Of a DNA stretch of 50,848 nucleotides, positions 13,226 to 27,279 are shown in pieces. This DNA comes from a virus. A program made the translations under genes and the position numbers. Location: positions 1 to 50,848 of IMG/VR virus record IMGVR_UViG_3300028829_005056; one strand, written 5' to 3'. Below the pieces are notes generated by a model, which searched no databases, was not told the origin of the DNA, and saw nothing but the letters and a program-made list of their open reading frames with translations. Position 1 is the first letter of the stretch. The number at the start of each line of letters is the position of its first letter.

Positions 13226-14227
13226 ATGAGTAAGAAAGCAATCGTAATAAGTGGTGGTGGTGCTAAGGGTGCCTTTGCTGGTGGTATTGTTGATTACTTA
13301 ACAACGAAGAATAAAAAAGACTACGATATGTATGTCTCATCATCAACAGGTACACTTGTACAATTAATTGCATCAACAGGTAATATCCCTAAATTAAAAG
13401 AGGGTTATACAACAGTTACAAATGAAAAAATTTGGAAGGTTAATCCATTTAAGCTTGTTAAAAACAAGAATGGTAAGGTTAAAACTGAACTTAGTTGGTT
13501 TAGAGTAATCAGAAATTTATTACCATCATATAAATTTAAAAAGAAAAAGGGATTTCCTTGGTTTACAATTAAAAAATTTGAAGGTGGAATTTCATTTGGT
13601 GATTCTAGTAATCTATTGTCACTAATAAAAGAATTCATGTCTCAGAAGGAATATCTATTTGTTAAAGAAGAATTAGAAAAGGAATTAATTGTTTGTACTG
13701 TAAACGCAACACTTAAACAAGTGGAATATAAGTCTTCTATGAATTGGGGTTATGATGATTTCTGTGAATGGACACAAGCATCTTGTAGTGCATATCCATT
13801 TATGAGTCCAGTACTTAAGAACGATTATCAATACATTGATGGTGGTATCCTTGAAACAGTTCCAATTCAAGAAGCTATAAATAGAGGTGCAACAGAGATT
13901 GATATTATAATATTAAAGGAAGAAAACCCAAAATTTGAAGTTGAGTATATGAGGAATTTATTACATGGTATCCTTACTGAGATAGATATGATGCATTATG
14001 AATTATCCAAAGACGATATTCAAATTGGTAAACTTAAGGCTAAACTAGATGATGTTACACTTAATTTTTATTACACTCCAAGGAAATTAACGAATAATAG
14101 TTTGATGTTTGATAAAGAAGTTATGACGGAATGGTGGGAAGAAGGGTATTTATATGCGAAGGGTAAGAACTTTAAATCTTACTATTTGAAGAAGGGAAGA
14201 AAGGCTAAGTTTATAAAGAAAGTTTAA
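13226..14227 (+). CDS. Patatin-like phospholipase
   Basis: A 333-residue patatin-family acyl hydrolase. The oxyanion motif GGGAKG is at residues 10-15, the nucleophile segment SSSTG at 38-42 (Ser40), and the catalytic Asp in DGG at about 205-207, giving the Ser-Asp dyad. The usual GxSxG has Ser instead of the first Gly. The C-terminal 100 residues are basic (KKGRKAKFIKK at the end). There is no signal peptide or membrane helix, so it acts in the cytoplasm or as a virion component. It follows a tail fibre gene by 3 bases and so is co-expressed with structural proteins. Possible roles: attack on host membrane lipids at lysis or entry, or processing of an acyl substrate. Confidence 0.88.
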   Translation: MSKKAIVISGGGAKGAFAGGIVDYLTTKNKKDYDMYVSSSTGTLVQLIASTGNIPKLKEGYTTVTNEKIWKVNPFKLVKNKNGKVKTELSWFRVIRNLLPSYKFKKKKGFPWFTIKKFEGGISFGDSSNLLSLIKEFMSQKEYLFVKEELEKELIVCTVNATLKQVEYKSSMNWGYDDFCEWTQASCSAYPFMSPVLKNDYQYIDGGILETVPIQEAINRGATEIDIIILKEENPKFEVEYMRNLLHGILTEIDMMHYELSKDDIQIGKLKAKLDDVTLNFYYTPRKLTNNSLMFDKEVMTEWWEEGYLYAKGKNFKSYYLKKGRKAKFIKKV

Positions 14228-14471: not shown

Positions 14472-14479
14472 ATATTTAT
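14472..14479 (+). promoter_or_regulatory. RTATTTAT motif before the tail sheath gene
   Basis: ATATTTAT, followed by TGTTAACGATAAG, 41 nt before the chosen sheath ATG at 14521 and just after the hairpin. Confidence 0.45.
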
Positions 14480-14520
14480 TGTTAACGATAAGAATAATAA
14501 ATTTAAAAACAAGAAATAAA

Positions 14521-17370
14521 ATGGCAAAAAATAGTGTATTCGTAAGCCCAGGGGTTTATACCTCAGAAAATGACCTATCATACGTAACCCGTCAAGTTGG
14601 TGTTACAACATTAGGTTTAGTTGGTGAAACAAACAAAGGTCCAGCCTTCCAACCAATTTTTGTAAGTAATTATGATGAGTTCAAGAGCTTCTTTGGTGGA
14701 TTAAACGCTTCTAAGGTTAAGGACACTGGTGCTCCAGCATATGAATTACCTTACATAGCTAAATCATATTTATCACAATCAAATCAATTGTTTGTAACAA
14801 GAGTTCTAGGATTATCTGGATACGATGCTGGTTTAGCTTGGGCTATTACGCTTGATGCTGCATTGGATACGTCAACAACTGGTGTAACTACAACAGCAAC
14901 ATCTTATAACCCATTGATTTCATATACAGCAACAACTGCTGGTACTGTAACAAATTTAGTTTCTGCTGACCCAACAGTTCAAGCACTTATTGATACTGGT
15001 GATTTAGATGCACAATTAGCATTTCTTGGAACAGCAACAACTGGGACTACCGCAGATATTGCTGCAACATATTACAAAGACCCAGCGGGTGGTTGTAATT
15101 TTAGTGGTTCATCATTTAACCTTTATGTTGACTTTGTTGACAATACTGGTACAACATACTTCGGTACTGCAACTGGTGAAACAGTTACATATTCTGGTGC
15201 TTGTTATGCTGGGGTTGAAAATCAAATTGTGGCACTTCTTAGGTCTAGAGGTACTTACGATGGAGATGAAAATCTTAATTTCCAATTATCAGCAACTACT
15301 GATTTAGGTTTCGACCCATCAGTAATTACAGCTGAGGAAGCACCATTAGGTGACTTCACTCTTACTGCTAATTCAGTAACACAAGGTGCTGTGTCTTACT
15401 CATTATCTTTAGATAATACTAAGAAAAATTACCTTAAGAGAGTACTTGGATGTACTGCACAAGATAATGAAACTGCAATATTTGTAGAAGAATTATTCTT
15501 AGATATGTTCCAAGACCTTAATACTGCTGGTAAGATTAGAGGTGTTAATCAAACACTTGTTAATTATGCACAAGAATTTAATGACTATAAGGCTGAATTT
15601 TCTCCAGCGGTTACTCCGTGGGTTGTATCAGAACTTAGAGGTACAAACCTTCTTAAATTATTCAGACTTTGGACTATTTCAGATGGTAATTCAGCAAATA
15701 AAGAATTTAAAATATCAATAACTAATATTAAGCCAGACGATAAAGAGTTTGATGTTGTAATTAGAGCTTACGCTGATACTGACGTTAAGCCAGTTATACT
15801 TGAGAAGTACTCTAGATGTTCTATGAGTCCAACATCAAATAACTACATCGCTAAGAAGCTTGGTACTGTTGATGGGAACTTCCCAGCTAAGTCTAACTAC
15901 GTGTTAATTGAGCTTGAAGAAGAATCTGATACGAGTGATGCATTCCCAGCTGGTTTCATCGGTGTTCCAGTAAGAGATTATACTCTTAACGGTAATACAG
16001 ATGTAGTTTCACCAGACTTAGAATATAACACATCATATGGTGTATTTGAAAATAAACGTAAGATTTACTTAGGTCTTTCTAATACTGTTGGAATCGACCA
16101 AGATTTCTTTGACTATAAGGGTGTTCCTAACTCTGTTGAGCTTAATCAATGGACTGGTCTTACAAACGGTTTCCACATGGATATCGATGCGACTGGTGCA
16201 ACAATTGATAACGTAGAGATAGTGATTAATAATACAGGTGGTACTTACTCACCAGTCTTCCAATTCGACACAGGTAATGCTGAGTTTAGAACAGATTCTG
16301 GTATTGAAGGTACTGACTATGAAAAATTATATGCTAGAAAGTTCACATTTGCACCTTATGGTGGATTTGATGGATGGGATGTATACAGAACTAGAAGAAC
16401 AAACAAGGATAATTATTTAATTAATGGTTCTAAGGGTAACGCTGGTCTTACTAACGGTACATTTACAAATAGAGCATTGACTAACGGTGATACAGGTATT
16501 AACTCTGATTACTACGCATACCTTGAGGGTATTTGGACATTCAATAACCCAGAAGCTACAAACATCAATGTGTTTGCGACTCCAGGTATTGATGACTTCG
16601 ATAATACTAATTTAGTTGAGGAAGCAATTGAAATGGTTGAGCAAGATAGAGCAGATTCAATCTACATTATCACAACTCCAGATACTGATGCTTCGGGTGA
16701 TATATTAATACCAGAAGATGTTGTTAATGATTTAGATGGACAATTTGATAGTAATTATTCTGCAACATACTGGCCATGGATACAAATAAATGATGCTGAA
16801 AATAACCAGTACATTTGGGTTCCACCAACAAGAGACGTTGTTAGAAACATCGCACTTACAGATAACATCGCATTCCCATGGTTTGCAGTTGCTGGTGTAC
16901 AAAGAGGTGATGTTGATGCTGTTCAAGCTAGAATTAAGTTAACTCAAGCAATGAGAGATGACCTTTATGATGGTAGAATCAATCCAGTTACAACTTGGAC
17001 AAGTGAAGGTATTAAGATTTGGGGTAATAAAACACTTCAAGTTAGAGAATCTGCATTGGATAGACTTAATGTTAGAAGACTTTTATTACAAGCTAGAAAA
17101 CTTATTTCTGCTGTATCTATCAGACTTCTTTTCGAACAAAACGATGCAATCGTTAGAAACCAATTCTTAAGCTTGGTAAACCCAATCTTAGACAATATTA
17201 GGTCTGAGAGAGGTCTTACAGACTTTAGAGTGGTATTAGATGACGACCCAGAAGCAATTGATAGAAACGAACTTTGTGGTAGAGTATTTATTAAACCAAC
17301 AAGAGCGTTAGAATTCATTTGTGTAGAGTTTAACATAATGAGTACAGGTGCATCATTTGATGACATTTAA
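14521..17370 (+). CDS. gp18: Tail sheath protein (gp18-like)
   Basis: This is the contractile tail sheath. The N-terminus (VFVSPGVYTSENDLSY, then GVTTLGLVGETNKGPAFQP) and the C-terminus (NVRRLLLQARKLISAVSIRL, then ALEFICVEFN near the end) are the conserved handshake regions of myovirus sheaths. At 949 residues it is much longer than T4 gp18 (659), with extra beta-rich insertions around residues 110-330 and 480-650 that should form outer domains. I start it at the ATG at 14521 because MAKNSVFVSPG matches the family start and the leader is A-rich; an upstream in-frame non-ATG codon at 14479 falls inside the promoter motif. It is followed by the tail tube gene. Confidence 0.96.
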   Translation: MAKNSVFVSPGVYTSENDLSYVTRQVGVTTLGLVGETNKGPAFQPIFVSNYDEFKSFFGGLNASKVKDTGAPAYELPYIAKSYLSQSNQLFVTRVLGLSGYDAGLAWAITLDAALDTSTTGVTTTATSYNPLISYTATTAGTVTNLVSADPTVQALIDTGDLDAQLAFLGTATTGTTADIAATYYKDPAGGCNFSGSSFNLYVDFVDNTGTTYFGTATGETVTYSGACYAGVENQIVALLRSRGTYDGDENLNFQLSATTDLGFDPSVITAEEAPLGDFTLTANSVTQGAVSYSLSLDNTKKNYLKRVLGCTAQDNETAIFVEELFLDMFQDLNTAGKIRGVNQTLVNYAQEFNDYKAEFSPAVTPWVVSELRGTNLLKLFRLWTISDGNSANKEFKISITNIKPDDKEFDVVIRAYADTDVKPVILEKYSRCSMSPTSNNYIAKKLGTVDGNFPAKSNYVLIELEEESDTSDAFPAGFIGVPVRDYTLNGNTDVVSPDLEYNTSYGVFENKRKIYLGLSNTVGIDQDFFDYKGVPNSVELNQWTGLTNGFHMDIDATGATIDNVEIVINNTGGTYSPVFQFDTGNAEFRTDSGIEGTDYEKLYARKFTFAPYGGFDGWDVYRTRRTNKDNYLINGSKGNAGLTNGTFTNRALTNGDTGINSDYYAYLEGIWTFNNPEATNINVFATPGIDDFDNTNLVEEAIEMVEQDRADSIYIITTPDTDASGDILIPEDVVNDLDGQFDSNYSATYWPWIQINDAENNQYIWVPPTRDVVRNIALTDNIAFPWFAVAGVQRGDVDAVQARIKLTQAMRDDLYDGRINPVTTWTSEGIKIWGNKTLQVRESALDRLNVRRLLLQARKLISAVSIRLLFEQNDAIVRNQFLSLVNPILDNIRSERGLTDFRVVLDDDPEAIDRNELCGRVFIKPTRALEFICVEFNIMSTGASFDDI

Positions 17371-17445: not shown

Positions 17446-17934
17446 ATGGCTGATTTATTAATGAAAATGCCCGTTCCTTACGAACCAAAGAAAAAGAACA
17501 GGTGGCTCCTAAGATTCCCAGCGGATTTAGGTATTCAAGAATGGTGGTTAGCGTCTGCATCAAGACCGTCTATCGAACAAGAGGAAGTGGAAATCCCTTT
17601 CTTAAACACATCAACTTGGGTAATTGGTAGATTCAAGTGGAGTTCAATTGACGTTACGTTTAGAGACCCGATTGGACCTTCTGCTGCACAAGCTATCATG
17701 GAATGGGTAAGACTTCATTCTGAATCAATTACAGGTAGACAAGGTTATGCGGCTGGTTACAAGAAGGACGTAGAACTTGAAATGCTTGACCCAACAGGTG
17801 TTGTTATTGAGAAGTGGGTACTTCAAGGTACAATGCTTACAAATGTTGGATTCGGTGAGCTTTCAATGGATGATGATTCTATTGCTGATATCACTGCAAC
17901 AATGAGATTTGATAGAGCAATTTTATTATTCTAA
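17446..17934 (+). CDS. gp19: Tail tube protein (gp19-like)
   Basis: A 162-residue tail tube protein, almost the same length as T4 gp19 (163). Recognisable segments are NRWLLRFPADLGIQEWWLAS near the N-terminus, FRDPIGPSAAQAIMEWVRLH in the middle and DDSIADITATMRFDRA at the end, forming the two-sheet tube fold. Hexamers stack inside the sheath to form the DNA channel. It stands directly after the sheath gene, as in T4, with its own promoter motif before and a strong terminator after, suggesting a monocistronic high-level transcript. Confidence 0.95.
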   Translation: MADLLMKMPVPYEPKKKNRWLLRFPADLGIQEWWLASASRPSIEQEEVEIPFLNTSTWVIGRFKWSSIDVTFRDPIGPSAAQAIMEWVRLHSESITGRQGYAAGYKKDVELEMLDPTGVVIEKWVLQGTMLTNVGFGELSMDDDSIADITATMRFDRAILLF

Positions 17935-18052: not shown

Positions 18053-19345
18053 ATGGACAAACAAAAACCACAAGTTTTCCCAACTAAGGAACAGCTAGAT
18101 ATAGCGAATGCAGTTGGAACACAATTAGCTACTAATGCAGAACAAGGAGTGGATGACCCAATTGGTAATTCTAATCAAGTGTCTGATGGAGAAACAGCTG
18201 CGGCTGATGAAATGAGACGTAGAACCCAAGAACAAATAAAACTTAGGGCACATGCTGATAAAGCAACACAAATTAATAAAGATGCTGGAATTGAAGCTAG
18301 AGAAGCGTTGATGGAAGAAATGGGTGTTGTAAACCCAAATACTCCGACAGATGCTCCGACAAATCAACCTCAAATAGCACCAGTAGATATTCAAGAAGCA
18401 CAAGAAGGTGCTATGTCATATGAAGACATCGTTAAATTCCAACAATACTTGAAAAATATTGATGATAAGAGAGCGGCAAATCCAGAACCACCAAGTATAC
18501 CGCCAGTGGTTCCACCTACTCCACCATCAAATACTAATTATGGTACACCTACACCACCACCTACACCACCAGTAGATGATGTGTATATCCAACAATTAAG
18601 CGAACCAAACCTAAATGCTGCGTTTGACGTTATTCCTTTACCTTCTGAGGGTAAGTTATACCCAAATAAGAGAAAGACCATTAAAGTGGCTTATATGACC
18701 ACTGCGGATGAAAATATACTTACATCACCAAACTTATTAAACAGTGGTAGATTCTTAGAGGTTCTAATGAATAGAAAGATGTTAGATACTGATATTAGAT
18801 ATAGAGATTTAGTTGAGGGTGATAGAGATGCTATTATGCTTTGGCTTAGAGCAACTGGTTATGGAAATATGTACCCAATTACCGTTAGTGGTAAAAATGG
18901 GGAGCCTTTTGATACTGAGATTGACCTTAATGAAATGAAAACAATAAATCTTAATATTGAACCAGATAAAAATGGTTATTTTGATTTTACCTTACCAACA
19001 ACACAAACACCAATTAAGTTTAAATTACTAACAGTTGGTGATAATGAGGAAATTGAAAATAAGGTAGAGTATGAGGTGGAAACACTTAAATTACCAATAG
19101 ATAATACATCGTTATATGTACTTGAAAAACAAATAGTTTCTATAAATGGTGATACCAACCCAGAGACAATTACAAACTTCACAAAGAATATGAGGTTATT
19201 AGATAAAACTAAATTAACGGAATATATAAATTCGATAACTTGTGGAATTGACATGTCAATCACGGTTGGGACCCCTGGAGGTGGGTCCCTCGACACGTTT
19301 CTTCCTATTAACCTCAAGTTTTTTTGGCCTAACATCCAGTTATAA
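18053..19345 (+). CDS. gp26-like baseplate/tail assembly protein, zero-frame product
   Basis: A 430-residue protein. Residues 1-180 are low-complexity and probably disordered, with a Pro-rich linker (PSIPPVVPPTPPSN). Residues about 185-430 look like the T4 gp26/gp51 baseplate family: FDVIPLPSEGKLYPNKRK, MTTADENIL, RYRDLVEGDRDAIMLWLRAT, then the Cys-containing INSITCGID and a final LPINLKFFWPN. It lies between tail tube and tape measure genes, the place where tail assembly chaperones with programmed frameshifts usually sit. The frame stops at 19343-19345 soon after FFWPN, while the +1 frame continues with a plausible C-terminal domain (see the next entry). The family call is from motif recall. 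Confidence 0.65.
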   Translation: MDKQKPQVFPTKEQLDIANAVGTQLATNAEQGVDDPIGNSNQVSDGETAAADEMRRRTQEQIKLRAHADKATQINKDAGIEAREALMEEMGVVNPNTPTDAPTNQPQIAPVDIQEAQEGAMSYEDIVKFQQYLKNIDDKRAANPEPPSIPPVVPPTPPSNTNYGTPTPPPTPPVDDVYIQQLSEPNLNAAFDVIPLPSEGKLYPNKRKTIKVAYMTTADENILTSPNLLNSGRFLEVLMNRKMLDTDIRYRDLVEGDRDAIMLWLRATGYGNMYPITVSGKNGEPFDTEIDLNEMKTINLNIEPDKNGYFDFTLPTTQTPIKFKLLTVGDNEEIENKVEYEVETLKLPIDNTSLYVLEKQIVSINGDTNPETITNFTKNMRLLDKTKLTEYINSITCGIDMSITVGTPGGGSLDTFLPINLKFFWPNIQL

Positions 19346-19595
19346 GGTCCCATTGTTGGATGAGATTTATCTATGTATGAGACACTTAAAGCTCCCATAC
19401 AGTGATGTTTTAAACATACCAACATATGAAAGAAGGTATTTTTTGACTTCATTTATCAATGAAAATCAAAAGAGACAAGAACAAATGGAAGAACAAAATT
19501 CCACTACCAGTAATGGTAATGGAAAGAGAACTACTAAAGTTAGTGGTCAACAATTAAAAACTAAATTACAAAACGGAGATATTCCTAACCATTAA
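19242..19595 (+). CDS. +1-frame extension of the gp26-like gene (frameshift product)
   Basis: The open frame runs from 19239, after a cluster of in-frame stops ending at 19238, to TAA at 19593-19595. Only its part after about 19341 looks like protein: LLDEIYLCMRHLKLPYSDVL, then NIPTYERRYFLTSF, a Gln/Glu tail and a Lys/Thr-rich end. The Leu-rich helix plus PTYERRYF resembles the second half of phage tail assembly chaperones. The only starts are a GTG at 19242, inside the region where the zero frame is clearly coding, and an internal ATG that would drop the DEIYLC helix. A +1 (or -2) shift near the zero-frame stop would give a fusion of about 513 residues. A one-base indel in the genome or the sequence would look the same. 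Confidence 0.6.
   Translation: MELTCQSRLGPLEVGPSTRFFLLTSSFFGLTSSYKVPLLDEIYLCMRHLKLPYSDVLNIPTYERRYFLTSFINENQKRQEQMEEQNSTTSNGNGKRTTKVSGQQLKTKLQNGDIPNH
19268..19289 (+). promoter_or_regulatory. GC-rich hairpin with SD-like loop inside the overlap
   Basis: GGGACCC (19268-19274) pairs perfectly with GGGTCCC (19283-19289) around the loop CTGGAGGT, which with the next base holds GGAGGTG, a strong Shine-Dalgarno-like string. Such GC-rich structure is exceptional in this AT-rich window. It may stimulate recoding downstream; a T7 run follows at 19319-19325. Confidence 0.55.
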
Positions 19596-19646: not shown

Positions 19647-20591
19647 ATGAGAATAAAGTTAACGGAAGGACAGTACGAATTGTTAAGAATGATTAATGAA
19701 GTTGTTAGTGGATTTAGTGGTGCTGTTGAAAAGGGTGGTTATGTTGCTGTATCATATATGTTAGGGGAGAAAGAAGAGGTAAATATTCTTAAAATTACAA
19801 ATATTTATGGTAATGGTCAATTTATTGAAGGGTCAAATAAAAATGGTGTGTTTTTATTTGATTTATCTTCTGCATTTTCTAAAACAGATAATACGTTTAC
19901 GGGTCTTAAAGATGGTAAGTATATACCACCACAAAAGAATGAGGAAGGAAAGATAATCTCAGCACCACAAATATCTGGTGGTTCTAAGATGAAAAAATTA
20001 GTTGATACTGTCTTGTCAGATAAAGGTGAAGAATTTGCAAATACTGATAATGATGTTAGTAGTGACGTTGAAGGGAAGACTGATTCTGAAAAAGAAAAAG
20101 AACAAGAAATTCGTAAGAAAGAGATTATGAAAATGGCAATGGCTGACCCAACAATTAGAAAGATGATGTATTATCAACCTTCTTTATTAGGTGGGTTGAT
20201 TAAAATTGGTAAGGCTAAGGGTATTGCTGTTGTTAATAATATTATCAACAAATATGGTGATGGAGATAGTGAAAAGGCTAAGAAGACTAGTAAAGAATTC
20301 TTAAAGAATAAATATTATGAATTTGAAACAGTAAAACCAGTAAGCGTTACGCATGGTCTTAAAGATTTTAAATTGGACGCTGGTGTGTCTTATAGACCAC
20401 AATTTGATGGTGAAAAATTTAATGGTACTATCAAGGGTTTACCAATTTCTTATTCAATTAAACTCAAAAAAAAGCAAGACAATGGTACTTATAAAGCAGT
20501 ACTAGAGGTGAAGTTTAAAGAAACTGGTAGAAATACTCCAGATAGAATTGAAACCAAAAAAGAAGATATTATAGTTAAATTTAATAAATAA
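19647..20591 (+). CDS. Unknown protein upstream of the tape measure
   Basis: A 314-residue protein I cannot assign. It starts MRIKLTEGQYELLRMINEVV, a short amphipathic helix preceded by a K-L-T-E motif. Residues about 25-70 form beta strands. Residues 125-160 are a charged helix with Glu/Lys repeats, and residues about 240-314 form a beta domain (FNGTIKGLPISYSIKLKKK). The gene is two bases from the tape measure start, so the two are surely co-transcribed. A tail hub or assembly function is suggested by position only. Confidence 0.55.
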   Translation: MRIKLTEGQYELLRMINEVVSGFSGAVEKGGYVAVSYMLGEKEEVNILKITNIYGNGQFIEGSNKNGVFLFDLSSAFSKTDNTFTGLKDGKYIPPQKNEEGKIISAPQISGGSKMKKLVDTVLSDKGEEFANTDNDVSSDVEGKTDSEKEKEQEIRKKEIMKMAMADPTIRKMMYYQPSLLGGLIKIGKAKGIAVVNNIINKYGDGDSEKAKKTSKEFLKNKYYEFETVKPVSVTHGLKDFKLDAGVSYRPQFDGEKFNGTIKGLPISYSIKLKKKQDNGTYKAVLEVKFKETGRNTPDRIETKKEDIIVKFNK

Positions 20592-20593
20592 TT

Positions 20594-23125
20594 ATGGCGT
20601 TTAATAAAAAGGACCTTGATGAAATCCGTAAAAGTTTAGAAGCTAATGGGAAGTTACAGGAGAAAATTAGTTCTTCTGCGGAAGCATATGCTAAACATTT
20701 GAAGGAAATTGCAGAGATTCAATCAAATATTAAACACATAACTCAACAACAAGCAATTCTTAAAGAGGAAGAGATTACTAATACTAATCAATTAAGAAAA
20801 CTTTTAAAGGATAGGAAAAAAGGTACTGAGGAAGAAATTAAGAATAGAAAGAAAGAAATCACTTTATTACTTAAACGAAGGACATTATTAAGGGAAACTA
20901 TTGCTTATGCTGATGATGCTCTTAGGATAGCTAAGGAAACCAATGATGAATACATAGAGGCAGCGCAAAATGTTAACAAAATTAACATGGGTCTTAAAGC
21001 TGGTGGTGCTTTAATGTCTAAGATGGGTGGTCTTATAAGTAAGGGGTTTGGTAAATTAAGAAACTCTGGTATATTCGAAATGGATAAAGCCATTAGAATG
21101 GCTGGTGTTGAAATGGGAATTGTTTCATCAACTGGTAAAGGTTTAGGACAAACTCTTCAAAATGCATCTGAACAAACCTTAATGATGGGTCTTGGTGTTA
21201 AAGATTTAGCTAAAATGCAAGCTTCTTATTCAACTGAATTGGGTAGAAGTGTTCAATTATCTAAAGAAGGTCTTGTTGCTATGGGTGAAATTGCTAACGG
21301 AACAATGTTAGGAACAGATGGGGCTGCCGCTCTTGTTGCTGAAATGGATAGATTTAACGTGTCTGCGGTTGGTTCTAGAGATATTATAGAGGAAACTGTT
21401 AATATGTCATCTAGGATGGGTGTAAACTCAACCAAGGTCCTTAAAACACTTCAAAACAATCTTAAAATGGCTAATAAGTATCACTTCAAGGGTGGTATTC
21501 AAGGTATGGCTAGAATGGCTGCTTCGGCTGCTAAGTTAAATATCGACATGGGTTCTATGGCTGGTATGGCTGAGGAATTATTTAATATTGAGGGGGCTGT
21601 TGAAATGTCAGCGAAACTTAATACAATGGGTGGTGAATGGGCTAAATTAGGTGACCCAATGAAACTTATGTATCAAGCTAGAAATGATATGGAAGGTCTT
21701 CAAGATAGTGTTGCTAATGCAACCGCTGGAATGGCAGATTTCAATAAAGAAACGGGTGAATTTTCATTTAGTGGTCTTGAATTACATAGAATGAAGGAGC
21801 TTTCAAAAATTACTGGTATATCAGCTGATGACATGGCTGAAATGGCTAAGAGTAAGGCTAAATTTGCTAAGATTGATTCTCAATTAGGTTCTGGTGTTAC
21901 TGATGACATGAAAGAATTCATTGAAAGTACAGCAACATTCAATAAGAAATCTGGAGAATTTGAAATTAAATTAAGTGGTCAAGATAAAGCAATCCCTATT
22001 GATGAACTTAATGCTAGTCACGAAAAAATGATATTAGCAAATTCAAAACACCTTAAAGAAAGAGCCGAAGAAAGTCAAACTTTCGATGAAACTTTAGGTT
22101 CTATTATAGAAGAAGCTAAAATGTTACTTTTACCAGTATTAGAAGGATTAAATGACTCATTACCAGCCATAAGAAAAATGATTGGTAATTTAATGGATAG
22201 TGGAATTGCTGATACATTGAAATCGGCAGCTAAGAGTGTTGGTAAGGTTGTAGGGAAAGCTATTTCTTTCTTAGCATCATTCCCTAAGATGTTAGGTGGA
22301 AGTCTTGTTGCTGTATTAGGTGGTGCTTTACTTTGGAATGTTGGTAAATGGATAATGAATGGAATGATGTTAGCTAAAGGATTTAATATGTCTGCTGGTG
22401 TAGGTGGTGTTGGAGGTAAAGGTGGTTTAGGTGGTGCTGGTGGTATTGGTAGTAAAACAGCAAGAAATACTATGAGAGGAAAGGGTCTTTCTGGTAAGAT
22501 GGGTAAATTTGGTAAAGGTATGGCTGGTAAAGGTATGGGTATGGGTGCTGCTGGTATGGTTGGTGGTATGGTATTGGACTACGGTAGAGGTGAGATGGAC
22601 AATCCAGATAGTGATATGGGTAAAGCAATGGGAGTTGCTAGTGGTGCCTTATCTGGTGCTGGTACAGGTGCTATGATTGGTAGTGTTATACCTGTTGTTG
22701 GTACTGCTGTTGGTGCTATAATTGGTGGACTTGTTGGAGGTATATCTAGTGCTGTTGAGGAATATGGTGGAGATACCAAAGGTGCTGGTCTTGGTAAGAT
22801 GGGTGCTAGTAATGCTATTAATGATGGTATACTTGCTGATGGTAAGGTTACACCTATTGATAGTAAGGATAAAGTATTTGAGATTAGTAAACCAGGTGGG
22901 GCTTATGATAAGGCTGCGAATGCTGGACCAGGTACTGCTAACAGTGGTGGTTCATCAAAAATACACATATCATTTGATGATATTACAGTTAAATCTGATG
23001 GTGATGTTGGGAAAATTGATTTAGATGGTGATAGTGCATTTATAAGAGAATTAGCTACTAAAATCAAGGAATCCCTTAATATGTCTGCGAATGGTGGTGT
23101 TTTAAATCCTAATCCTTCAACATAA
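20594..23125 (+). CDS. Tail tape measure protein
   Basis: An 843-residue protein with the composition and position of a tape measure. Residues 1-120 are a long charged coiled coil (HITQQQAILKEEEITNTNQL, KEITLLLKRR). Residues about 140-560 are Ala/Met/Gly-rich helices with repeated MA and MG pairs. Residues about 590-650 are Gly/Lys-rich, and residues about 682-722 are a hydrophobic glycine-zipper stretch (GAMIGSVIPVVGTAVGAIIG). A Gly/Ser-rich tail closes it. It lies downstream of the tube and frameshift genes. The tape measure sets tail length and, in many phages, forms the channel for DNA in the host membrane, which the glycine-zipper part would suit. Confidence 0.8.
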   Translation: MAFNKKDLDEIRKSLEANGKLQEKISSSAEAYAKHLKEIAEIQSNIKHITQQQAILKEEEITNTNQLRKLLKDRKKGTEEEIKNRKKEITLLLKRRTLLRETIAYADDALRIAKETNDEYIEAAQNVNKINMGLKAGGALMSKMGGLISKGFGKLRNSGIFEMDKAIRMAGVEMGIVSSTGKGLGQTLQNASEQTLMMGLGVKDLAKMQASYSTELGRSVQLSKEGLVAMGEIANGTMLGTDGAAALVAEMDRFNVSAVGSRDIIEETVNMSSRMGVNSTKVLKTLQNNLKMANKYHFKGGIQGMARMAASAAKLNIDMGSMAGMAEELFNIEGAVEMSAKLNTMGGEWAKLGDPMKLMYQARNDMEGLQDSVANATAGMADFNKETGEFSFSGLELHRMKELSKITGISADDMAEMAKSKAKFAKIDSQLGSGVTDDMKEFIESTATFNKKSGEFEIKLSGQDKAIPIDELNASHEKMILANSKHLKERAEESQTFDETLGSIIEEAKMLLLPVLEGLNDSLPAIRKMIGNLMDSGIADTLKSAAKSVGKVVGKAISFLASFPKMLGGSLVAVLGGALLWNVGKWIMNGMMLAKGFNMSAGVGGVGGKGGLGGAGGIGSKTARNTMRGKGLSGKMGKFGKGMAGKGMGMGAAGMVGGMVLDYGRGEMDNPDSDMGKAMGVASGALSGAGTGAMIGSVIPVVGTAVGAIIGGLVGGISSAVEEYGGDTKGAGLGKMGASNAINDGILADGKVTPIDSKDKVFEISKPGGAYDKAANAGPGTANSGGSSKIHISFDDITVKSDGDVGKIDLDGDSAFIRELATKIKESLNMSANGGVLNPNPST

Positions 23126-23366: not shown

Positions 23367-25787
23367 ATGCCAGAAAGTATTAATTCATTGTCTCCAGATT
23401 TTAGAGACTTCCTACTCAACAGAAACTTAGTAACTGATTCTATTAGTGATAATGGATTAACAAGTTTATTGGTTGGTATAGGTACACCTAAGACTGATAT
23501 TAGTTCAGTCCCAGATGTAGTTAATCCTTCTGAAAGTATAGTAAGTGATGGTGTTCTTCATAAAGATTTAAATGTACTTACCAACAAGTATCAAGGTACT
23601 GATTATGATTATAAACAAGTAAATATAGTTTATCAATCTAATCTTCCACCAACAAGTGCTATAATTTATAGTTCAAACTATACTGATGATAATGGTATTT
23701 TAGATGAAACTTTAGAATTACCACCAAATAGAGGATTTAGTCAAGGTGGTGATATTAGACAATACAATACTTCATTAAATTTATATAATGATACGGATAA
23801 ACAAATTGTTACTAATTTAGTATACCAACCGAACCCAAATGTACAATACACCAACTATATAGATGTTAATTCTGCAATTGTAAATCCAGCAATAGATATA
23901 TTAGGTTCTGTATTTGATGGTAATGGTGTTGGTTTAGGTGCTGGTAAAGGTATTAATGCTATTCAACCTAATTTTGATTTACGTTCAACAATTATTGGTA
24001 GAGTGTTAGGTGCATCTGGTGTTATTGGTGATACACCAATAGGTCAAGCTGGAGCTAAGTATTTAGCTCTTTCATTAGCAAATAATGCTGCCTTTGGACT
24101 TCAACAAGAAACCATAGGACACCTTAACCTTAATCCACTCAACCTTGCAATGAATGGTCTTGATTCGTTTGTAGTACCAAATTACAATATTACAGTACCT
24201 CAAGGTAAATTAGGTAAGGTATTAGACTTTGGAGCAAGAGTTCTTGGATTTGAAGTACCTGTTAGTATATTTGATAATTCTTCATCTATATTCAACAAGG
24301 AGAATCCAGTATCAAATATTTTAAGAGCTAATGCTCAAATATCAAACTCTGGTAAAGGACAAGTATTAACATTGTTTGCGAATATTAAACAAAATAAATA
24401 TAGACCAGGTTTCCAAGACGATAGGGTTAAAGGTGAAAATCAATCAGATGAAGAGAAAGTACGAAAGGGTTCTGCTTTAAATTCAAATATATATGCATTC
24501 GAAGCTGGTGATGGTGGTATTGAGGATTTAATCAATACTAATGATAGTGGGTTTGAAACTGAACACGGTAAGATAACTAGTGAATTAAAGGGAGGATTCA
24601 ACGACCAATTTGGTGACCTTGAAAATACACATAGACTTGATAATGTTAAGAATGGTTTTTCATGGTCTGATGATTTTAATAATTCAGAAGCTCAAGATGA
24701 TGAGAGAGGTGTCAATGGTTATGATGATGTTTTCAAAGATAACCCAGAAGGTATTCTAGCTAAAACCAAAAGTTTATTTGCAACCAATAAAATGATGACT
24801 CTTGTTTCTGGACATGGGGTTTTAGGTCAAACAAATAGTGAAATTCAAAATACAACTAGAGATTACGTATCTAAAGGTAGTGCTGTTTTAAGTAATGCTG
24901 CATTAAAATCTGAAACTGGTACTGCTATGCCACCAGATGCCACATTTTGTAGAACATGGACAACATTTGATAGATATAGTCAAGTCCAAGATTTACAGAA
25001 ACATTCTGGGGTTGATGGTACTACAGCATATAGAGAAGGACTTGATGAAAGTGTATTAGGTGATAACGGATTTGTTAAGATTGCACCAACTAGTAATGGA
25101 AAAGACTTCGCTGGTGGTAATATTAAGAATTATATGTTTTCACTTGAAAATCTTGCATGGGCTGATGACCACGCAAAATTATTACCTTGTGAAACAGGAC
25201 CTGGTGACCAATTTGGTAAAAAAGGTAGAATCATGTGGTTCCCACCTTATGATTTATCAGTAAGTGAAAATAATTCTGTTAATTGGGATTCAACTAATTT
25301 CATTGGTAGAGGTGAACCAATATATACTTATAGTAATACTGAAAGAACTGGTACACTCCAATTTAAGATTGTTGTTGACCACCCATCATATCTTAACGCA
25401 ATCAAAGGTGAGAGTGATGAATATATTGCATCTTTCTTTGCTGGTTGTACCGACATTGACCCTGTGTTAGCTGAAAAGTTAACAGTTATCGAAAAAAATG
25501 AAATATTAACTAGAAATCAATTAACAGACCAACAGAAGGATGCGATGGATATAAATCCAGACATACCATTTGTTGATTTTTATTTCCCTAACGATGTTGC
25601 TGAACTTAATGACACTTATGAGAATGCATCTGGTAGTACTGGTTTAGGTCAAATACAAGCTAGTGGTAATTATGTAGGTAGTGCTAGAAATTATAAAGAT
25701 GATACTGATTTTGGATTGAATGGAGACCAAGCACCAGGTGCTACCATTAGGTGGGTGGATATCAGCTGCTGGACAAGATGCTCTTAA
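23367..25787 (+). CDS. Baseplate protein with start of an OmpA-like domain (first frame)
   Basis: An 806-residue protein without signal peptide. Residues about 150-300 contain hydrophobic Leu/Gly-rich helices (AKYLALSLANNAAFGLQQET). Residues about 620-675 form a beta module (GRIMWFPPYDLSVSENNS, then TNFIGRGEPIYTYSNTERTG and FKIVVDHPSY) that I associate with phage baseplate proteins. At about 735-746 comes FYFPNDVAEL, like the first strand of an OmpA/MotB peptidoglycan-binding domain. The frame then runs into a terminal stretch, RWVDISCWTRCS, that looks out of frame, while the +1 frame supplies the rest of the OmpA domain. The true product is probably joined to the next entry. Confidence 0.6.
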   Translation: MPESINSLSPDFRDFLLNRNLVTDSISDNGLTSLLVGIGTPKTDISSVPDVVNPSESIVSDGVLHKDLNVLTNKYQGTDYDYKQVNIVYQSNLPPTSAIIYSSNYTDDNGILDETLELPPNRGFSQGGDIRQYNTSLNLYNDTDKQIVTNLVYQPNPNVQYTNYIDVNSAIVNPAIDILGSVFDGNGVGLGAGKGINAIQPNFDLRSTIIGRVLGASGVIGDTPIGQAGAKYLALSLANNAAFGLQQETIGHLNLNPLNLAMNGLDSFVVPNYNITVPQGKLGKVLDFGARVLGFEVPVSIFDNSSSIFNKENPVSNILRANAQISNSGKGQVLTLFANIKQNKYRPGFQDDRVKGENQSDEEKVRKGSALNSNIYAFEAGDGGIEDLINTNDSGFETEHGKITSELKGGFNDQFGDLENTHRLDNVKNGFSWSDDFNNSEAQDDERGVNGYDDVFKDNPEGILAKTKSLFATNKMMTLVSGHGVLGQTNSEIQNTTRDYVSKGSAVLSNAALKSETGTAMPPDATFCRTWTTFDRYSQVQDLQKHSGVDGTTAYREGLDESVLGDNGFVKIAPTSNGKDFAGGNIKNYMFSLENLAWADDHAKLLPCETGPGDQFGKKGRIMWFPPYDLSVSENNSVNWDSTNFIGRGEPIYTYSNTERTGTLQFKIVVDHPSYLNAIKGESDEYIASFFAGCTDIDPVLAEKLTVIEKNEILTRNQLTDQQKDAMDINPDIPFVDFYFPNDVAELNDTYENASGSTGLGQIQASGNYVGSARNYKDDTDFGLNGDQAPGATIRWVDISCWTRCS

Positions 25788-27279
25788 GAAAGTTCTTAAC
25801 GAACAATGTCAAGCATGTAAGGTTAGAATTTATGGATACGCTAGTGTTGCTGGTGGTAAAAACAACGAAGGTAATCAAAAGTTATCTGACGCTAGAGCGG
25901 AAGCCGTTAAGGTATGGTTTAAAACGAATATATTTGATAGTAGTAGTCCAATATATGATATAATATCAATGGATGAGCGTTTTGAAGAATCAAAAGGTAA
26001 AGGTGTTGATGAAGGTGGTAGTGAGAAGTGTACAATTACAGAAGGGGTTGATACCTCAGCATATTATGGATGTAAAATACATAGAAAGGTAAATGTTAAT
26101 ATCTTACACGATAAAATACTTGAAGCTAAATTAAATAAAAATGAGGGTGATGATAAAGAAGTCGAAGATACATTTAATGTTAGTAATAAAATAACTAATA
26201 GATTTTATAATGAATGTAATTACTTTGAAGTGTTAGCACAAGAGGATAAGTTTGTTTACGACACACTTAAAGAAAAATTAAAATATTTCCATCCAGCATT
26301 CCACGCAATTACACCAGAAGGTCTTAATTCAAGACTTACATTCTTATTGCAATGTACTAGACAAGGACCAACGAATATTAAAGGTGCACCAGACAATCTT
26401 GCGTTTGGTAGACCACCAGTATGTATTCTTAGATTAGGTGATTTTTATCATAGCAAGATTGTTATTGATAATGTTGGTATCACATATGAGCCACTTGTTT
26501 GGGACCTTAACCCAGAAGGAATAGGTGTTCAACCAATGATTGCAACAGTTGACTTGTCATTTAAGATGATTGGTGGTCAAAGTCTTAGAGCACCGATTAA
26601 TAAGTTACAAAACGCTGTATCATTCAATTTCTTTGGTAATACACAAGTTTATGATGTTAGGGCTGATAAACTTAAAGAAAATAAGGGTGAATTTGACTTG
26701 GTGTTAGGTGCTGAGAAATTGGAATCTATTTCTGACCCAGTTGAAGTATCAAAAAAACCAAATGGAACACATAGAAATGAAGCCGTTACTAATCAAGAAA
26801 ATTTAGCTGACAATGTGAATAGCAATACAGAAGAATCAACTGAATCAACTGAAACAACGGAAATAAAAATTCTAGGTAGTAATGGCTTTGATTTAAGTAG
26901 ACCATCCTTAACAGATAATAGACTTAAAATTAATGTTAAGGCTAAACAACAAGGTATTTATTCTGCATCTACAGATGGAACAATAACACAATTAATTACT
27001 GATGATGAATATAATTTATGGTTAGAAAAAACTCTTACAATAAAATTAGACTCAGCGGAAGGTGACCCTAATCCAATCCACATAGAAAATATTATAACAG
27101 CAACTAAGGGTAGTAGCGGCACGGATGCCGAATCATTATTTGGTCTTGGATATGCATTTGGTGATGAATGTGTTGGTGGTGGTTATTGTGTTGAGGGTAT
27201 TGAACCAGGTAAGCAATATAAGATTTCTATTTGGTATAAGGGAAATAAAAAAACCATAGATTGGATTACAGCACCTTAA
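25720..27279 (+). CDS. OmpA-like domain remainder plus baseplate domain (second frame)
   Basis: A 519-residue frame, +1 relative to the gene it overlaps by 68 bases. From about residue 14 it reads ISAAGQDALKKVLNEQ, then VRIYGYASVAGGKNNEGNQK, LSDARAEAVKVWF, and later CKIHRKVNVNIL. These are the helix, the second strand with GYAS, the N-x-x-LS-x-x-RA helix and the R-[KR]-V strand of OmpA-like peptidoglycan-binding domains. A second domain (AFGRPPVCILRLGDFYHSKI, then VDLSFKMIGG) is typical of baseplate proteins. The first 12 residues do not fit. Joined to the previous frame the product would have about 1300 residues. Independent start at the ATG at 25720 is possible but would leave the OmpA domain split between two proteins. 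Confidence 0.6.
   Translation: METKHQVLPLGGWISAAGQDALKKVLNEQCQACKVRIYGYASVAGGKNNEGNQKLSDARAEAVKVWFKTNIFDSSSPIYDIISMDERFEESKGKGVDEGGSEKCTITEGVDTSAYYGCKIHRKVNVNILHDKILEAKLNKNEGDDKEVEDTFNVSNKITNRFYNECNYFEVLAQEDKFVYDTLKEKLKYFHPAFHAITPEGLNSRLTFLLQCTRQGPTNIKGAPDNLAFGRPPVCILRLGDFYHSKIVIDNVGITYEPLVWDLNPEGIGVQPMIATVDLSFKMIGGQSLRAPINKLQNAVSFNFFGNTQVYDVRADKLKENKGEFDLVLGAEKLESISDPVEVSKKPNGTHRNEAVTNQENLADNVNSNTEESTESTETTEIKILGSNGFDLSRPSLTDNRLKINVKAKQQGIYSASTDGTITQLITDDEYNLWLEKTLTIKLDSAEGDPNPIHIENIITATKGSSGTDAESLFGLGYAFGDECVGGGYCVEGIEPGKQYKISIWYKGNKKTIDWITAP

Follow-up and report, generated by a model that had tools for sequence, protein, structure and literature searches.

Tail gene order in the window

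The window, the whole stretch of DNA analysed here, is a virus record of 50,848 bases. Its T4-type tail genes stand in the order sheath, gp19-like tube, gp26-like open reading frame (ORF), 314-aa ORF and tape measure. The sheath gene lies at 14479-17370. On the + strand there follow the gp19-like tail tube gene (17446-17934; phrog_4542 tail tube, E=1e-27), a zero-frame ORF of 430 aa with its stop TAA at 19343-19345 (18053-19345; phrog_150 'baseplate hub', E=4.2e-8), the 314-aa ORF, for which we found no significant family (19647-20591), and the tape measure gene (20594-23125; phrog_794 tape measure, E=8.3e-9). The zero-frame ORF would encode a short tail assembly chaperone (TAC-N, the counterpart of T4 gp26), and a predicted C-terminal domain in the +1 frame of the same strand (19326-19595, stop at 19593-19595) would extend it to a long form (TAC-NC, the counterpart of T4 gp51). 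The chaperone gene sits between the tube and tape measure genes, with one extra ORF intervening. An initial annotation had proposed a programmed frameshift between these two genes and, with it, the chaperone role known from lambda and Mu; the comparative evidence given below supports this proposal, except that the extra ORF at 19647-20591 precedes the tape measure gene. A search at the DNA level found no phage relatives of the window.

Two features of the neighbourhood may be recorded here. A gene for a patatin-like phospholipase (13226-14224; PF01734, E=1e-18) lies immediately 5' of the phage's tail sheath gene. In the baseplate region, an ORF at 23367-25787 shares 68 bases (25720-25787) with the next ORF (25720-27279), which is read in a different frame.

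A frame break conserved across related viruses

The zero-frame ORF has the C-terminus ...LKFFWPNIQL*. The +1 frame, interrupted by 32 stops across the 430 codons of that ORF, has the final one at 19236-19238 and is open thereafter to 19595. Both frames had been read in this way at the outset, the gp26-like frame running through FFWPN to a stop at 19345 and the +1 frame being rich in stops up to 19238. When the zero-frame part and the +1 part served as separate queries in our first IMG/VR searches, the +1 relation was seen wherever both parts turned up. A second search relied on a profile whose sole search pattern lay in the N-part; 80 loci were kept of the 593 relatives matched. Both domains were present in 78 of these 80 loci, with the +1 relation in 78/78, and the remaining two (L161 and L206) showed the N-part alone, the contig ending there. 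With all loci scored against separate N and C profiles, the C-terminal domain proved to be shifted by +1 against the gp26-like N-part in 183/183 related viral loci that had both parts. These loci are the closest matches, unevenly sampled, with N-part identity down to about 30%, and they include overlapping fetches of the same contigs, so that the distinct junctions number 108. An identical contig from a different record (L003) has the same frame break.

The +1 relation also holds in seven cultured or reference phages, namely Microcystis phage Mel-JY01, Flavobacterium phage immuto, Streptococcus phage GXN1, Listeria phage LIS04, Bacillus phage SP-15, Rhodothermus phage RM378 and a 484-kb uncultured phage. 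When the window is compared with L002, the closest of its divergent relatives (88% identical), post-slip differences fall 4/6/31 on +1 codon positions 1/2/3, and the +1 extension is therefore a constrained coding frame. This bias, the 183/183 loci and a helical structural model confirm the protein-like character that the initial annotation had ascribed to the +1 end.

A sequencing or assembly indel, or a decayed gene, would look identical in a single genome, and a one-base indel had indeed been kept as an alternative at first; but the same break in 183/183 loci and in the seven cultured or reference phages excludes such a sequencing error, and, with downstream divergence biased to third positions, leaves this whole class of explanation with practically no probability. 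The frame break is real, not an error, and very widely conserved.

A divergent member of the gp26/gp51 family

The zero-frame protein matches phrog_150 only to position 217 of the family; continued in the +1 frame, the protein matches positions 20-279 of 282. T4 gp26 and gp51 show the same two extents, gp26 matching phrog_150 at 14-235 and gp51 at 13-280 of 282. The two T4 proteins, products of separate genes, thus represent a short and a long version within one family; both are listed as hub assembly chaperones (PMC3004832). A profile of shifted proteins aligned with T4 gp51 through the C-terminus over both domains (hhalign E=1.4e-5); taken alone, the N and C halves aligned with gp51 weakly. 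In Pfam, the window protein had no match to PF12322 (T4_baseplate), a family that is matched by its relatives SP-15 (100 bits) and XacN1 (77.5 bits). By its sequence, then, the window protein is a divergent member of the gp26/gp51 family according to phrog_150, not according to Pfam. The initial annotation had set a 'gp26-like' gene beside a chaperone pair; the chaperone role stands, but the gp26-like protein is itself the chaperone, in a single T4 gp26/gp51 family.

The conserved chaperone core measures 245-247 aa in more than 180 loci. It is preceded in the window by a proline-rich N-terminal extension of about 180 aa (18053-18601); in relatives its length is close to either 10 or 180 aa. 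We folded the N and C parts of the fused protein separately. AlphaFold models the N-part with a pLDDT of 90, and the model's matches are T4-like proteins of the baseplate hub and of hub assembly, themselves predicted structures. Among solved structures, the HK97 tail assembly chaperone had the highest match probability (0.33), with an E-value that was not significant, and sequence and fold searches of the PDB gave no significant match. The C-part in the +1 frame is predicted to be helical, with a core pLDDT of about 97. It also weakly resembles, over 19332-19592, Pfam DUF6760; at E 0.04-0.08 this match misses its cutoff, and DUF6760 was rejected as the identity of the C-domain and kept only as a lead.

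These relationships suggest that TAC-N is most likely the product of standard decoding of the gene and TAC-NC that of a +1 frameshift.

The proposed slip site

The T7 run at 19319-19325 forms part of the candidate slip site TTT_TTT_TGG_CCT (19319-19330, + strand). All 108 distinct junctions have TTT or CTT followed by T or C (YTT, then Y), the next codon being mostly TGG or CGN. The form present in the window accounts for 78 of them; the others are of the types TTT_TTT_CGN, TTT_CTT_TGG and TTT_CTT_TAC, or have TTT_TGG preceded by AAT or TTA. Every distinct junction allows the P-site tRNA to re-pair one base forward (UUU to UUU or UUC, CUU to UUU), and in every locus the slip region is bracketed by the last stop of the +1 frame and the stop of the zero frame.

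In the window the slip codon pair would be UUU_UGG (19322-19327), 18 nt before the zero-frame stop. A slip in the P site would move the tRNA from UUU at 19322-19324 to UUU at 19323-19325 and make GGC (19326-19328) the next codon. The initial annotation had placed the shift at the stop codon, reading FFWPNIQL-K. However, between the slip site and the zero-frame stop, difference rates between loci are 0.135/0.137/0.438 at +1 codon positions 1/2/3. Because these pre-stop bases are constrained as +1 codons, the shift must come no later than GGC at 19326 and so ahead of the stop. We therefore rejected the stop codon as the place of the shift: the +1 constraint starts at the slip site, and the zero-frame stop differs among relatives in both position and type. 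A slip at UUU_UGG apparently gives the junction FFGLTSSYK instead. The predicted long-form product reads FFGLTSSYKVPLLDEIYL, and the predicted product across the junction is ...LKFFGLTSSYKVPLLDEIYLCMRHLKLPYSDVLNIPTYERRYF...

A +1 shift might instead occur at the proline codon CCU (CCU to CUA or CUG), as in Listeria phage PSA, giving FFWLTSSYK. CCT or CCC comes after TGG or CGN at nearly all junctions, and proline codons are known +1 sites (PMC5009743). Re-pairing from CCU to CUN is poor, however, and the codon one step beyond the slip is other than CCN in L167 (TAT), LIS04 (ACC) and SP-15 (GCC). The YUU-Y rule, by contrast, holds in all distinct junctions, and we regard a shift at CCU as rather unlikely.

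Of the two directions allowed by the initial annotation, '+1 (or -2)', the +1 relation stands and the -2 shift is disfavoured. A -2 shift on the U run would yield the same frame with an extra phenylalanine (FFFGL), and Mu uses a -2 frameshift for its chaperone. Yet L167 (AAT_TTT_TGG) and L171 (TTA_TTT_TGG) lack the run that such a shift needs, and like the CUU_UGG junctions they offer no -2 re-pairing, which makes this explanation very unlikely.

There is a comparably slight chance that the C-part is a separate small protein, made by internal initiation or translational coupling and without any frameshift. Many near-family loci do have an in-frame GTG at -38 or TTG at -29, and Mel-JY01 is annotated with a separate 78-aa CDS. 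No start is conserved, however: among 99 near loci, 9 lack one altogether and 88 have no ATG before the C-domain. Moreover, the overlap is constrained in the +1 frame from the slip site on, T4 gp51 is the fused form, and in jumbo phages the frame relation at these FF codons is -1 instead.

Transcriptional slippage on the T7 run could also put part of the mRNA in frame by producing messages of mixed length, and T7 is indeed present in the window and its near family. We find this scarcely plausible, as the +1 relation is kept without T7 in immuto (TTT_CTT_TGG), L160, L162, L166, L167 (T5) and L171 (T4), and the synonymous constraint described next starts 50 nt upstream. A ribosomal +1 slip at UUU remains the reading that we prefer.

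Candidate RNA signals upstream of the slip site

Across 53 sequences of the near family, nothing is unusual about codon choice until 51 nt before the T run, where it turns abruptly abnormal, over -51 to -3. In this stretch of synonymous-codon constraint (19268-19318, + strand) the per-codon deviation is mostly 1-6.8, against 0.34 +/- 0.24 upstream, with a few codons at background; rare codons, TCC, ACC, CTC and CCC among them, occur within it.

The constrained stretch begins with a candidate upstream stimulator, hairpin 1 (GGGACCC/GGGTCCC; arms 19268-19274 and 19283-19289, + strand), which spans -51 to -30 and carries GGAGG (19277-19281) in its loop. The GGAGGTG motif occupies 19277-19283 and the 3' arm ends 53 nt before the TAA; hairpin, motif and T7 run lie where the initial annotation had drawn them. 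The -50/-31 pair is GC, AU, CG or UA; it is paired in 45/57 sequences with both sides changed in 22, counts that still contain the effect of relatedness, which the covariation control leaves in. Where the 3' arm has GGTTCC, moving the register by one position allows it to pair with GGAACC or GGGACC in the 5' arm. Hairpin 1 is more stable than in synonymous-codon shuffles (mean z -2.1; z ran from -0.34 to +0.16 in control stretches); folded alone, the window sequence is unremarkable against dinucleotide shuffles (z -0.47). An alignment of homologues, proposed at the outset as a check, thus found the frame break conserved in 183/183 loci and the hairpin covarying.

Weaker evidence points to an alternative hairpin 2 or pseudoknot stem, in which 19277-19285 would pair with 19297-19305 (+ strand) around a GGRGG:CUUCC core. 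The RNAalifold consensus favours hairpin 2 over hairpin 1, pairing GGRGGWG(R)(K) with (M)UUUCUUCC; one pair goes from GC to UA in 6 sequences, and the same pair is broken in the window. When fully formed, hairpins 1 and 2 share bases and are mutually exclusive. Alternatively to hairpin 2, GGRGG:CUUCC alone could form a pseudoknot stem atop hairpin 1.

From these patterns we lean towards a stimulating effect of the upstream hairpin on the +1 shift. A precedent is the work of Huang et al. 2018 (PMC6321510), who show that a hairpin placed upstream enhances +1 shifting by 70S ribosomes at CUUUGA, at about 60% of the strength of an internal Shine-Dalgarno (SD) sequence and only without RF2. Against such a role, hairpin 1 is 30 nt before the slip codons, and the hairpins of the published constructs abut theirs. 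We considered SD stimulation for the window class and rejected it, since GGAGG lies some 40 nt away from the slip, with no SD motif close to it; in the UGG class, an SD-like motif within 18 nt upstream of the slip was found in 1/142 loci.

Loci of the UUU_CGN class (L101-L109, L170-L205) have an architecture unlike that of the window: a hairpin with CCCC...GGGG arms abuts the slip site, and an SD-like motif of the GGGG/GGAG type stands close upstream, within 18 nt in 36/42 loci of this class, an arrangement reminiscent of RF2 mRNA.

A model for the two chaperone forms

Our main reading, to which we give a probability of about 0.93, is that the gene encodes the tail assembly chaperone of a T4-type contractile tail, frame 0 giving TAC-N and a +1 slip at UUU giving TAC-NC, with the hairpin probably stimulating the slip. 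We infer the frameshifting, its rate, the stimulation by the hairpin and the functions of the proteins from comparison of sequences. Most ribosomes would read frame 0 to the stop at 19343 and release TAC-N. In a fraction of cases the ribosome, holding tRNA-Phe on UUU at 19322-19324 while UGG occupies its A site, would move one base forward and read GGC next; in relatives the re-pairing would be UUU to UUC or CUU to UUU. Shifted ribosomes would complete TAC-NC with its helical C-terminal domain. If the parallel with lambda G and GT holds, the tape measure protein would be coated by TAC-N and tail tube subunits would be brought in by TAC-NC. The RNA hairpin 30-51 nt upstream would refold behind the ribosome and probably stimulate the forward shift. 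That the A-site codon UGG in the window is a sense codon counts against the model.

A more specific version, which we offer tentatively and would not bet on, is that the cassette is driven from behind the ribosome: the GGAGG-loop hairpin, possibly switching to the second hairpin or pseudoknot (GGRGG:CUUCC), would push the ribosome by +1. The 3' edge of hairpin 2 or the pseudoknot would clear the ribosome just as UUU_UGG enters the P and A sites. If true, this would give the engineered upstream hairpins of PMC6321510 a counterpart in nature, and T4, with gp26 and gp51 as separate genes, would represent one of three routes (+1 shift, -1 shift, two genes) to the same pair of chaperone forms.

Relation to known frameshifting systems

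Frameshifted chaperones are a known kind. Atkins et al. 2016 (PMC5009743) describe G-T frameshifting as a feature that long-tailed phages widely conserve, 'except T4'. The locus resembles lambda G/GT (Xu 2004; reviewed in PMC5009743) in its position between tube and tape measure, in its short and frameshift-extended forms and in the loss of the second part from annotation. It differs in its direction, +1 rather than the mostly -1 shift of that system, in its gp26/gp51 protein family, which looks unrelated, and in RNA signals that lie upstream, where G/GT has none or downstream ones. With T4 gp26/gp51 (PF12322, phrog_150) it shares the family, the short/long correspondence and the same C-terminal domain, but T4 has two separate genes and the window one gene with a +1 shift. 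T4 gp26/gp51 were identified as the T4-like tail assembly chaperones by Vladimirov et al. 2022, according to PMC10885494, which, citing the same work, states that some T4-like phages, rather than shifting frame, carry one short gene and one long, fused gene.

Versions with a +1 shift were already suspected in haloviruses. The archaeal myovirus HSTV-2 has been named as very likely +1 (PMC5009743), and for HF1-group halovirus chaperones a +1 shift at TTT-CGC, at the same map position, has been proposed (PMC7230728). Direction, myovirus map position and the UUU_CGN site are shared with our loci; unlike these, the HF1-group cases are archaeal viruses for which gp26/gp51 membership is not shown and no RNA structure is described. 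The influenza A PA-X +1 site, UCC_UUU_CGU (PMC3498833), resembles the UUU_CGN class in having tRNA-Phe move from UUU to UUC in the P site before CGN, but belongs to a eukaryotic ribosome and an unrelated gene, and the window site is UUU_UGG. Like RF2 (prfB) CUU_UGA, our sites allow re-pairing of CUU to UUU or UUU to UUU at YUU_U, and the UUU_CGN class has an SD-like GGGG/GGAG nearby; unlike RF2, the window has UGG in the A site and no stop codon there, and its class is without an SD motif near the slip.

A +1 shift that is conserved throughout these gp26/gp51-family loci, together with a likewise conserved RNA structure on its 5' side, appears new in direction, family and RNA signals, Vladimirov et al. 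2022 being represented in this comparison by the paper that cites it. It would provide more than 100 natural variants of a +1 site with upstream RNA structure, at a time when known +1 signals are few and poorly defined.

An apparent -1 solution in jumbo phages

The C-domain lies in the -1 frame in XacN1 (L117), the 595-kb LR756511 (L116), RAS14 (L211), PA5oct (L212), Atu_ph07 (L213), 121Q (L214), GAP32 (L215) and RaK2 (L216), cases that we read one by one, outside any systematic count. These members have a heptamer of the T_TTT_TTC or T_TTT_TTT type at the same FF codons, and by their sequences jumbo phages of the chaperone family appear to use -1 frameshifting at a canonical heptamer. A -1 shift at a poly-T site has been proposed for the chaperone of Vandenendeviridae (PMC12846349). 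Pseudomonas phage Adele and its Vandenendeviridae relatives (PMC12846349) resemble the window in TAC-N/TAC-NC, the poly-T slip site and the argument from conservation; the shift there is -1, and Adele is closer to the jumbo-phage members.

With the -1 jumbo phages, the +1 loci and the two-gene T4, three solutions therefore coexist in one protein family. Conserved +1 shifting in T4-like myoviruses and -1 shifting in related jumbo phages would go far to close the T4 gap. Such shifting would also explain small ORFs that are missing or misannotated before tape measure genes; in the jumbo phages, the C-part is either unannotated or annotated as a separate hypothetical protein.
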